From Haloarchaeobius amylolyticus (GTDB taxonomy: Archaea > Halobacteriota > Halobacteria > Halobacteriales > Natrialbaceae), in assembly GCF_026616195.1 (NCBI RefSeq), contig NZ_JANHDH010000002.1, forward strand, positions 558,001-622,000: DNA of 64,000 nucleotides, in the 5' to 3' direction. Shown here piece by piece: positions 15,151-18,006 of the stretch (within the stretch, counting starts at the first letter, position 1; every line of letters begins with the position of its first letter). The notes beneath the pieces were generated by a model. That model had not been told where the DNA came from. It made no database searches and saw only the letters and a program-made list of their open reading frames with translations. Made by a program: the position numbers and the translations under genes.

Positions 15151-15274
15151 GCTTCGGCGTTCTTTCTGATTTTCCGATTTCCGGTCTGGCGCGCGCCGAC
15201 AGGGTGCCGAGCCCGAGCGAGGCCCCTGGTAGGCGTCGCGCGAGGTCCGCACGACCGGTAGCGAGAGCGGGCTC

Positions 15275-15522
15275 GTGAGAGCTTGCTCTCACGGTGGCCG
15301 ACCGGAGTGACGCGGAACGTAGTGGAGCGAAACGGCGGGAGTCGGCTGGGGAGGGCGTGGCTGCGGTGCTGTGCCGTGGCGGTCTCCATCGCCCTCGGCG
15401 CGAGTCGACGTTCTCCCCCGAGTCACCCCAGCGTCGAATCCGAAACTGCAGGTGGGCAGTGGTGGCGACGAGCAGACCACTCATGCTGGCGTCCACGACC
15501 GCACCACGCCCTCCCCAGCCGA
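15275..15522. repeat. Intergenic inverted-repeat region
   Basis: The start of the 780-base gene-free stretch holds GTGAGAGC-TT-GCTCTCAC (15275-15292), a perfect 8-bp hairpin. It also holds a 19-bp perfect inverted repeat with arms TCGGCTGGGGAGGGCGTGG (15342-15360) and its complement (15504-15522), 143 bp apart. The outer flanks (TGGAGCG.. / ..CGCTCCA) are also partly complementary. This kind of decorated, non-coding sequence recurs in haloarchaeal genomes as dispersed repeats. From 15523 to 15690 I see nothing definite. Confidence 0.5.
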
Positions 15523-15690
15523 TTCCGCGCTTCCTTCCGTTCCGCTGGCGCTCCATTCCAGTCCAGTGCTCATCCCTCGCGCGACGTCGAACGCGGCCGT
15601 CTCACGGGGTTCGACGACCGCGTCGGCGCGCGCCAGAACCCTATTCACACCGGGTCGAAATCACGCTACCACCCAACACACCCCACGACA

Positions 15691-15700
15691 CCTTTTTATC
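15691..15700 (+). promoter_or_regulatory. TATA-like element for candidate RNA
   Basis: CCTTTTTATC is one of the clearest TATA-like sequences in the gene-free region. Using the usual archaeal spacing it would place a transcription start near 15722-15725, at the first base-paired element of the structured region and about 200 nt before metG. Confidence 0.45.
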
Positions 15701-15721
15701 CGTCTCCCGACCAACCCAGTA

Positions 15722-15895
15722 CCGTGACAGATACGACCCGTCACGTCCCCGAGAACCGCCGTATGCGCATGGCGTGAGCCATGCCTGGCGGGTGGACCGG
15801 GGGTTGCGGGTCGGTCATACGACTTCTCCGCGCGGTCTGAAAGCCGGGTGCTGTCGAATCCCAGAGCGAACCGTCGACAGAACAGACCGGAATCA
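15722..15895 (+). ncRNA. Candidate structured RNA (or long leader) upstream of metG
   Basis: Successive exact inverted repeats can be read directly. CGTGAC/GTCACG pair at 15723-15728 and 15740-15745. CGTATG/CATACG (15760-15765/15816-15821) enclose GCATGGC-GTGA-GCCATGC (15767-15784, a GNRA tetraloop) and a weaker ACCG/CGGT. CGGTCTG/CAGACCG (15833-15839/15883-15889) enclose CTGTCGA/TCGACAG (15851-15857/15874-15880). There is no good reading frame. A TATA-like box precedes it and the metG promoter follows. I do not recognise SRP, RNase P or a tRNA. An H/ACA guide is possible but the pocket geometry and ACA are not convincing. Confidence 0.45.
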
Positions 15896-15912
15896 GCGGG
15901 TTTTAGGCCCGC
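15896..15912 (+). promoter_or_regulatory. metG TATA element inside an inverted repeat
   Basis: GCGGG-TTTTAGG-CCCGC: the TTTTAG core is centred about 28 nt before the metG ATG, the expected spacing for a leaderless transcript. It is flanked by a perfect 5-bp inverted repeat that could also form a hairpin ending an upstream transcript. Confidence 0.5.
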
Positions 15913-15930
15913 ACGATAGCAGACGATACC

Positions 15931-18006
15931 ATGAGCAACGACGACTTTCCCACGGACAACACCGCGGTGGTGACGTGTGGGTTGCCCTACGCCAACGGCG
16001 ACCTGCACGTCGGCCACCTGCGGGGCTACACGAGTGCAGACACGTTCAACCGCGCGCTCCGGAAACTGGGCCAGCAGACGGCGTACGTCTGTGGCTCGGA
16101 CATGCACGGGACACCTATCGCGGTGAACGCCGAGAAGGCCGGCGTCTCGCCCGAGGAGTTCGCGCTGGACTACCACGAGCAGTACGAGGAGACGTTCCCG
16201 CGGTTCAACATCGAGTTCGACAACTACGGGCACACCCACGACGAGACGAACACGGAGACCACCCAGTCCATCGTCCGCAAACTGGAGGACGAGGGCTACG
16301 TCTACGAGAAGGAGATCAAGGTCGCCTGGGACCCCGTCGAGGACCAGCCGTTGCCGGACCGCTACGTGGAGGGCACCTGCCCGTACTGTGGCGAGCAGGC
16401 CCGCGGCGACGAGTGCGACGAGGGCTGTGGTCGCCACCTCGAACCCGGCGAGATAGAGGACCCCGTCTCCTCGGTGACGGGCAACCCGGCGGAGTACCGC
16501 GAGCGCCCGCACAAGTTCTTCGAGGTCTCGGAGCTCTCGGACTACCTCACGGAGTTCCTCGACGACCTCCAGGGGACGAGCAACGCGAAGAACCAGCCCC
16601 GCGAGTGGATAGAGAGCGGGCTGCAGGACTGGTGTATCACCCGCGACCTCGACTGGGGCATCGACTACCCCGGCGAGAATCCCGAAAACCTGGTGCTGTA
16701 CGTGTGGGTCGACGCGCCCATCGAGTACATCTCCAGCACGAAGCAGTACTCCGAGAAGGTCGGAAAAGACGAGTACGACTGGGAGAACGTCTGGCGCGAC
16801 GACGACGGGGAGATCATCCACGTCATCGGCCGCGACATCATCCAGCACCACACCATCTTCTGGCCGGCGATGCTCCACGTGGCCGAGTACAACGCCCCGC
16901 GGGCCATCTGTGCGACCGGCTTCGTCACCATCAACGGGAAGGGCCTCTCGACGAGCCGGAACCGCGCCATCTGGGCGCAGGAGTACCTCGACGAGGGCTT
17001 CCACCCGGACCTCCTCCGGTACTACCTGACGACGATGGGCGGCTTCCAGCAGGACCTCGACTTCAGCTGGGACCGCTTCCAGGAGCGCGTCAACGGCGAG
17101 TTGGTAGGTACGGTCGGGAACTTCCTCTACCGCAGCCTGCTGTTCGCCCAGCGGAACTTCGGCGGGACGCCGGCGGCCGACCTCTCCGCGGAGGTCGAGG
17201 CGCGCATCGAGGCGGCCATCGCGGACTTCACCGACGCGGTCAACGAGTACGAGATCCGCCGGGCCGGCGACGCCGCGGTCAAACTCGCCCAGTTCGGGAA
17301 CGAGTACATCCAGCAACACGAGCCCTGGAAGCTCGACGACGAGGAGGCTGCACCGGTCATCCGCGACTGCGTCCAGATCGCGAAGGCCGTCACGCTGCTC
17401 ATCGAGCCCATCACGCCCGGCAAGGCCGAGCAGGCCTGGGACCAGTTCGCCGGCGAAGGCGACGTCCACGAGGTCACCGTCGACGCGGCGCTGGAGCCGC
17501 CGGCTGCCGAGTTCGACGAGCCCACAGAGCTGTTCGAGAAGGTCGAGGACGAGCGCGTCGCGGAGCTGAACGAGAAGCTCGCCGAGCGCGTCGCCGAGGC
17601 CGAGGACGACGAGGACGAAAGCGAAAGTGACGATACCGCGGGGGATGACGAGGCGGACGTGAGCGACGAACTCGAACCCCTGCTGGACTCGCGCATCGAC
17701 TTCGACGACTTCCAGGAACTGGACATCCGGGTCGGCCGCATCGAATCGGCCGAGCCCATCGAGGACTCCGACAAACTGGCGAAGCTCTCGGTCGATATCG
17801 GCGTCGAGACGCGCCAGGTCGTCGCGGGCATCAAGCAGCTCCACGACCTCGACGAGCTGCCGGGCACGAAGGTCGTGCTGCTCGCGAACATGGAGAAGGC
17901 CGAGCTGTTCGGCGTCGAGTCGAACGGGATGGTACTGGCCGCCGGCGAGGAGGCCGACCTGCTGACGACCCACGGCGACGCCGAGCCGGGCACGAAGGTC
18001 CGGTAG
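15931..18006 (+). CDS. metG: Methionyl-tRNA synthetase with C-terminal tRNA-binding domain
   Basis: A 691-residue class I synthetase charging tRNA-Met. The HIGH motif is HVGH (26-29). The connective peptide carries a Cys cluster (CPYCGEQARGDECDEGCG). The KMSKS-like motif is GKGLSTSRN. An acidic linker at about 555-580 joins a C-terminal EMAP/Trbp111-type domain (DFDDFQELDIRVGRIESAEP, VVAGIKQLHD). The fused domain raises tRNA affinity and allows dimerisation in homologues. Length is as expected for this two-part form. Confidence 0.96.
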   Translation: MSNDDFPTDNTAVVTCGLPYANGDLHVGHLRGYTSADTFNRALRKLGQQTAYVCGSDMHGTPIAVNAEKAGVSPEEFALDYHEQYEETFPRFNIEFDNYGHTHDETNTETTQSIVRKLEDEGYVYEKEIKVAWDPVEDQPLPDRYVEGTCPYCGEQARGDECDEGCGRHLEPGEIEDPVSSVTGNPAEYRERPHKFFEVSELSDYLTEFLDDLQGTSNAKNQPREWIESGLQDWCITRDLDWGIDYPGENPENLVLYVWVDAPIEYISSTKQYSEKVGKDEYDWENVWRDDDGEIIHVIGRDIIQHHTIFWPAMLHVAEYNAPRAICATGFVTINGKGLSTSRNRAIWAQEYLDEGFHPDLLRYYLTTMGGFQQDLDFSWDRFQERVNGELVGTVGNFLYRSLLFAQRNFGGTPAADLSAEVEARIEAAIADFTDAVNEYEIRRAGDAAVKLAQFGNEYIQQHEPWKLDDEEAAPVIRDCVQIAKAVTLLIEPITPGKAEQAWDQFAGEGDVHEVTVDAALEPPAAEFDEPTELFEKVEDERVAELNEKLAERVAEAEDDEDESESDDTAGDDEADVSDELEPLLDSRIDFDDFQELDIRVGRIESAEPIEDSDKLAKLSVDIGVETRQVVAGIKQLHDLDELPGTKVVLLANMEKAELFGVESNGMVLAAGEEADLLTTHGDAEPGTKVR

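Follow-up and report, generated by a model that had tools for sequence, protein, structure and literature searches.

What is the interval between a repeat region and metG, the methionyl-tRNA synthetase gene, in the window (the whole stretch of 64,000 nucleotides analyzed here), and is it a separate RNA or a part of the metG transcription unit? The source region is that of a Haloarchaeobius, the metG relatives at 83–84% identity being those of Haloarchaeobius sp. FL176 and H. iranensis, and the region is common to six Haloarchaeobius genomes. The repeat region 5' of the interval (15180–15640) has stretches (CGGCTGGGGAGGG.GTG.. and GCGAGGGA..GAA.CG) in common with regions upstream of hisS and of the second trpS (L289, L290, L314, L315), and it looks like a dispersed haloarchaeal repeat. 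The sequence-only reading had proposed a structured non-coding RNA on the basis of a series of complementary segments. All the pairs that it named were found in place, among them the following:

15723 and 15740: complementary pair CGTGAC/GTCACG, present
15760 and 15816: complementary pair CGTATG/CATACG, present
15767 and 15778: complementary pair GCATGGC/GCCATGC, present
15833 and 15883: complementary pair CGGTCTG/CAGACCG, present
15851 and 15874: complementary pair CTGTCGA/TCGACAG, present
15896 and 15908: complementary pair GCGGG/CCCGC, present

As a signal of structured RNA the segments did not hold, their number being at the chance level of GC-rich shuffles and most of the stems not being conserved. 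Exact complementary pairs of at least 6 nt numbered 8, against 6.2 ± 2.4 in dinucleotide shuffles (58 of the 200 reached 8), and those of at least 7 nt numbered 4, against 1.65 (14 of the 200 reached 4). Also the fold of 15722–15930 gave no support (z = −1.12), as 22 of 200 shuffles folded equally well. Conservation in relatives, suggested earlier as a check, failed for most of the named stems: GCATGGC/GCCATGC was seen in no genome but this one and a sibling with 95% identity, in which CTGTCGA/TCGACAG was already broken. GCGGG/CCCGC was conserved, but as a palindrome at the metG TATA box, and it was present also in genomes where the other parts of the region are absent.

The statement that no reading frame fits the interval was wrong. 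An ORF extends from GTG at 15724 to TGA at 15777, in a layout conserved across the order, and the supposed GNRA loop GTGA contains its stop codon. The features of the locus are as follows:

15692–15699, + strand: TATA box of the leader promoter P1, CTTTTTAT (from the sequence)
15724–15777, + strand: leader peptide ORF of 17 codons with GTG start and TGA stop, MTDTTRHVPENRRMRMA (translation; homologs)
15747–15760, + strand: 5' strand of the alternative stem 1:2, inside the ORF (minimum-energy fold)
15763–15771, + strand: control codons Met-Arg-Met, ATG CGC ATG (in-frame ATG counts over 79 leaders)
15787–15849, + strand: conserved post-stop hairpin (match to covariance model R1; covariation)
15815–15818, + strand: UCAU of the apical loop, containing CAU, the anticodon of tRNA-Met (invariant in alignment A1)
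15889–15912, + strand: metG promoter P2, GGAATCAGCGGGTTTTAGGCCCGC (nearly constant distance to metG in most genomes)
15931–18006, + strand: metG, methionyl-tRNA synthetase, 691 aa (ORF; relatives)

The TATA box that had been noted ahead of the first stem was confirmed. It lies 25–32 nt 5' of the leader start codon, a spacing that would fit a leaderless or nearly leaderless transcript. Judged by sequence, the homologous leader ORFs, which start with ATG or GTG, have an A+T-rich box at equal spacing upstream.

Full-length relatives of metG were present in all the haloarchaeal genomes searched. The metG upstream regions of 156 genomes from the order were examined, each in the reading frame set by the ATG or GTG that comes next after the first TATA box. 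A fixed rule, i.e. a TATA-spaced short ORF in which, close to the end, Met adjoins Arg, Pro, His or Cys, detected a leader in 66 of the 156 regions, compared with 1–6 in ten shuffles and 4 in the reverse complements; with all upstream regions in the metG orientation the count was 70 of 156. At least 79 haloarchaeal genomes, from nine families and 34 genera, have this layout immediately 5' of metG, and approximately half of the sampled genomes had no recognisable leader. Apparently decayed leaders (L180, L183, L164, L104), showing an apparent frameshift, a nonsense codon or an ORF-less remnant of the hairpin, suggest that the leader has been lost repeatedly. Outside Halobacteriales, the metG upstream DNA of 21 other genomes in the phylum showed no convincing Met leader.

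The leader of the source genome has two Met codons near its end, a single sense codon separating the second of them from the stop. Homologous peptides likewise ending with Met codons before the stop include MTRQTRLPGVRFDDSGMRMRLF, MTSVHPTSMRMRMGLF, MTQPAPPQFSMRM, MFRTDGRRARSMRP, MCRTAHLTRMPMRGQQ and MTTRAVVPVCSRPMRM. The 79 metG leaders are 12–38 codons long, with the start, the Met(-Arg) codons and the stop in one frame and the last Met 0–6 codons before the stop. Altogether 136 ATG codons were in frame and only 3 and 0 in the other two frames, and Arg followed at 103 of these 136; since the ORF search itself applied the Met rule, these Met counts are biased by selection, and the structure-only model described below is the less biased check. 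The Arg codons after Met were 44 CGC, 31 CGT, 15 CGG and 13 CGA, all four CGN codons thus being used and the wobble position free. The rest of the peptide showed no third-position excess, substitutions being equal over the three codon positions, and the N-terminal part is therefore unconstrained. We find it hardly credible that the product of the ORF is a functional small protein: the ORF does have a conserved start, stop and C-terminal Met-Arg motif, as would be expected of one, but it ranges from 12 to 38 residues, its N-terminal part is free to change, and it always stands beside metG.

The stop codon of the leader is followed by a hairpin. Its base helix, CGGG/CCCG, leads through an internal loop, where GGA faces GAA, to a middle helix, and this is topped by an apical hairpin. 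A crude downstream duplex energy test of this hairpin was not significant, and alignment covariation was therefore used for its support. Alignment A1 included 22 sequences from six families. None of 500 shuffles reached the observed covariation on any of five measures, and 80.6% of the cells were paired compared with 34–48% in slid controls, the structure having been derived from these same sequences. Compensatory changes occur among the homologs. Plain RNAalifold retained just 9 of the 18 pairs in A1. A kink-turn (L7Ae site) considered at CGGGTGGACC/GAAACCCG was rejected, many homologs lacking the 3-nt bulge and the consensus being the GGA/GAA internal loop. Also the pairing CGTATG/CATACG, which would join the Met codons with the apical loop, was rejected, since beyond AUG/CAU it is kept in some species only.

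The structure-only covariance model R1, covering only the hairpin, was searched in 146 genomes and gave matches in 35 of them at E ≤ 0.05. The strong matches were only beside metG, and the few marginal ones away from it look false. Seven of the matched genomes were outside the training set (L206, L208–L211, L213, L216), and each of the seven had a leader ORF in which Met closely precedes the stop. One genome (G086) had a marginal match and a degenerate ORF. The hairpin of the source genome (15787–15849) is a weak member, scoring 26.3 bits (E 2.5e-4) in a search of 12 kb and falling below the threshold in the whole-genome search.

The earlier alternatives, a separate small RNA or an attenuator-like leader, can be told apart with these results. 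An independent structured sRNA or an H/ACA guide RNA could be expected to have its own promoter and a conserved hairpin, as here, and haloarchaea do possess H/ACA guides (PMC2584109). It is nevertheless very unlikely, since no match of convincing score was found away from metG, the strong R1 matches being in cis to it, and since the start of the element is the start of an ORF. The absence of matches to known RNA classes was borne out by Rfam: the window gave none at gathering scores, and covariance models including T-box, SAM, SRP and RNase P gave no match even at E 10 in 15600–16000. A guide for 23S rRNA helix 69 was considered separately and rejected: the complementarity of 7–8 nt (GGTCATA, 7 nt) is at chance level, there is no second arm, and the complementarity varies between families. 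The other half of the proposal was nearly right, as the element adjoins metG in every strong match and combines its own promoter, a structured RNA and a peptide with Met codons.

The UCAU of the apical loop, invariant in the 22 sequences of A1, was present in 37 of the 74 leaders overall and absent in families f5 and f17. In four members of f5 (L083, L087, L090, L098) the apical loop is GUAACG or GUAGCG in place of UCAU. The loop raises the possibility of MetRS autoregulation by anticodon mimicry, in which the UCAU hairpin would imitate the anticodon arm of tRNA-Met and MetRS binding would feed back on its own mRNA. The tRNA-Met loops of the source genome are CUCAUAA on 5-bp stems, some leaders have CUCAUAC or CUCAUGC, and there is precedent in the regulation of thrS by ThrRS in E. 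coli and in yeast HisRS, both being cases of autoregulation by anticodon-arm mimics (PMC6542539). As the explanation of the locus we regard it as unlikely. The CAU loop cannot be the core of the mechanism, two families having the Met codons without it, and mimicry leaves unexplained both the in-frame peptide and the Phe and Trp leaders described below. Such feedback could, however, act beside the leader peptide.

That metG has its own promoter downstream, as the sequence-only reading had held, was confirmed by comparison among the genomes. The TATA element of P2 (TTTTA) lies within the GCGGG/CCCGC palindrome approximately 30 nt before the metG ATG, and P2 is kept at a near-constant distance from metG in most genomes, including those without the leader. 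The leader is therefore not needed for basal expression. The palindrome around this TATA box (15889–15912) is kept across haloarchaea even where there is no leader and is possibly an operator.

The RNA around the Met codons can pair in two ways. Within the ORF, CCCCG (15747–15751) and CCGCC (15756–15760) can pair with GGCGG (15787–15791) and CGGGG (15798–15802) to form stem 1:2, the Met codons sitting between its two strands. The post-stop strand thus has two possible partners, the ORF and the 3' side of the hairpin. Over 74 leaders taken together the pairing of the ORF with the post-stop strand was stronger than in shuffles, with a combined z of −5.6 when kinship was ignored, and the leader of the source genome alone had a z of about 0. 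T-runs after the stop were enriched when all the sequences were pooled; genus by genus they were not, and f17 with a few others accounted for most of them. A universal intrinsic terminator is consequently unsupported, the enrichment being confined to some lineages. Archaeal termination may not require a hairpin.

The same kind of scan was made on trpS, pheS, hisS, cysS, ileS and tyrS in the source genome and its relatives (13 genomes). For pheS, a TATA-preceded ORF ending FGFF(F) was found in all six Haloarchaeobius genomes and three others, that of the source genome being MAAESSHRGIAQEHGDTPGFGFFFAV followed by the stop, at G000:C1:2360652-2360732 (L294). These pheS leaders (L294, L292, L293, L295, L296, L300–L303) are conserved, leaderless, approximately 100 nt upstream and seemingly unannotated. 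For trpS, leaders with WRW were found in eight genomes, that of the source genome being MQSAPCWRWRSFPGADSIACGVDVA followed by the stop, at G000:C1:2317195-2317272 (L284); the conserved WRW leader belongs to one trpS paralog (L284, L276–L283). No leader was found for hisS, cysS, ileS or tyrS in the 13 genomes. When genes were tabulated against amino acids, metG had Met in 5 of 11 (two-Met rule), pheS had Phe in 9 of 12 and trpS had Trp in 8 of 12, and the other cells had 0–2.

In trpS the Trp codons are in a loop between the covarying strands GTCCGCTCCC/GGGAGCGGAC, with compensatory changes GTCCATTTCCC/GGGAAGTGGAC and CCGCTCTC/GAGAGCGG. A third strand offers the second an alternative partner, so that 1:2 and 2:3 pairings are both visible, and a pyrimidine tract follows in several species. 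In pheS several post-stop RNAs fold with a similar loop, CGGAC being opposite CGAAA. R1 gave no significant match in the pheS and trpS loci, the best being at the pheS leader L303 (E 0.16), and an RNA module common to metG, pheS and trpS is a suggestion only.

Three synthetase genes with three matching codons would very unlikely be a coincidence, and gene-matched codons are, as a sequence pattern, the hallmark of cognate-codon leader-peptide control. They bear also on another explanation, promoter interference or a plain uORF effect, by which the short ORF and P1 would modulate P2 or metG translation with no codon-specific sensing. P1 and P2 being on the same strand approximately 200 nt apart agrees with it, but it predicts neither gene-matched codons nor a covarying hairpin, and we consider it quite improbable.

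The computational support thus consists of an in-frame ORF with cognate codons, promoter-like spacing, a covarying hairpin, linkage to metG, and the Phe and Trp counterparts. We think it likely that the region is a cis-acting metG leader peptide and RNA switch that would sense Met-tRNA charging via ribosome stalling, and the leader most likely couples metG expression to that charging. The steps that we infer are leaderless translation, stalling at hungry codons, a structural switch and an altered output. Transcription from P1 would begin at the GTG codon or close by, and the RNA would be translated as a leaderless peptide of 17 residues, the last of which are Arg-Met-Arg-Met-Ala. With charged tRNA-Met scarce, the ribosome would stall at the Met codons, and the position of the stall would decide whether 15787–15802 is taken up in stem 1:2, with the ORF behind it, or in the hairpin 15787–15849 ahead. 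This choice would alter the amount of RNA or protein from metG, and through the leader a shortage of Met-tRNA would lead to more MetRS. The favoured output, in view of the second promoter retained beside metG, is readthrough of P1 transcription added to basal P2 expression, and effects on translation or RNA stability may contribute instead.

More generally, we are inclined to believe that haloarchaea use a general, leaderless type of ribosome-mediated attenuation, at least at metG, pheS and trpS, with an extra promoter, a cognate-codon leader and surrounding RNA structures, stalling raising the synthetase; at metG, MetRS binding to the CAU mimic would possibly be added. This suggests that in haloarchaea ribosome stalling may serve to detect a lack of amino acids, a mode of regulation known best in bacteria. 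If true, archaeal transcription and translation would be coupled so tightly that expression could depend on where the ribosome stands, and leaderless uORFs would acquire a regulatory role; the question is directly testable in genetically tractable haloarchaea. To our knowledge, no leader-peptide attenuator has been demonstrated in Archaea. A search of the open-access full-text literature, subscription journals being outside its scope, found no archaeal cognate-codon leader peptide, and such control in Archaea is provisionally regarded as unreported.

Compared with known systems, half of the metG leaders resemble those of thrS and HisRS (PMC6542539) in having a hairpin with the cognate anticodon CAU in its loop ahead of a synthetase gene. 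They differ in that the CAU loop is not universal, the MetRS site is putative, and it is combined with a cognate-codon ORF. Like the haloarchaeal H/ACA guides (PMC2584109), the metG element is a conserved haloarchaeal RNA hairpin in a non-coding interval, but it has no guide pocket for 23S helix 69 and it encodes a peptide. With the Gram-positive T-box leaders it shares the position at a synthetase gene and the presumed sensing of tRNA charging; unlike them it has no Rfam match, and the sensing proposed goes through codon translation instead of direct binding of the tRNA. In bacteria, attenuation mediated by the ribosome on a leader peptide is known from trp and his, and from pheST for a synthetase operon. 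The haloarchaeal leaders are like these in having a short cognate-codon ORF upstream and, putatively, control codons between pairable strands, and the candidate alternative pairings downstream are clearest in the trpS leader. The metG leader is unlike them in being archaeal, in its leaderless start, in the second promoter before the gene and in having no general intrinsic terminator. Cognate-codon leader peptides are thus already known in bacteria, and what is new, provisionally, is the archaeal case of metG, pheS and trpS.
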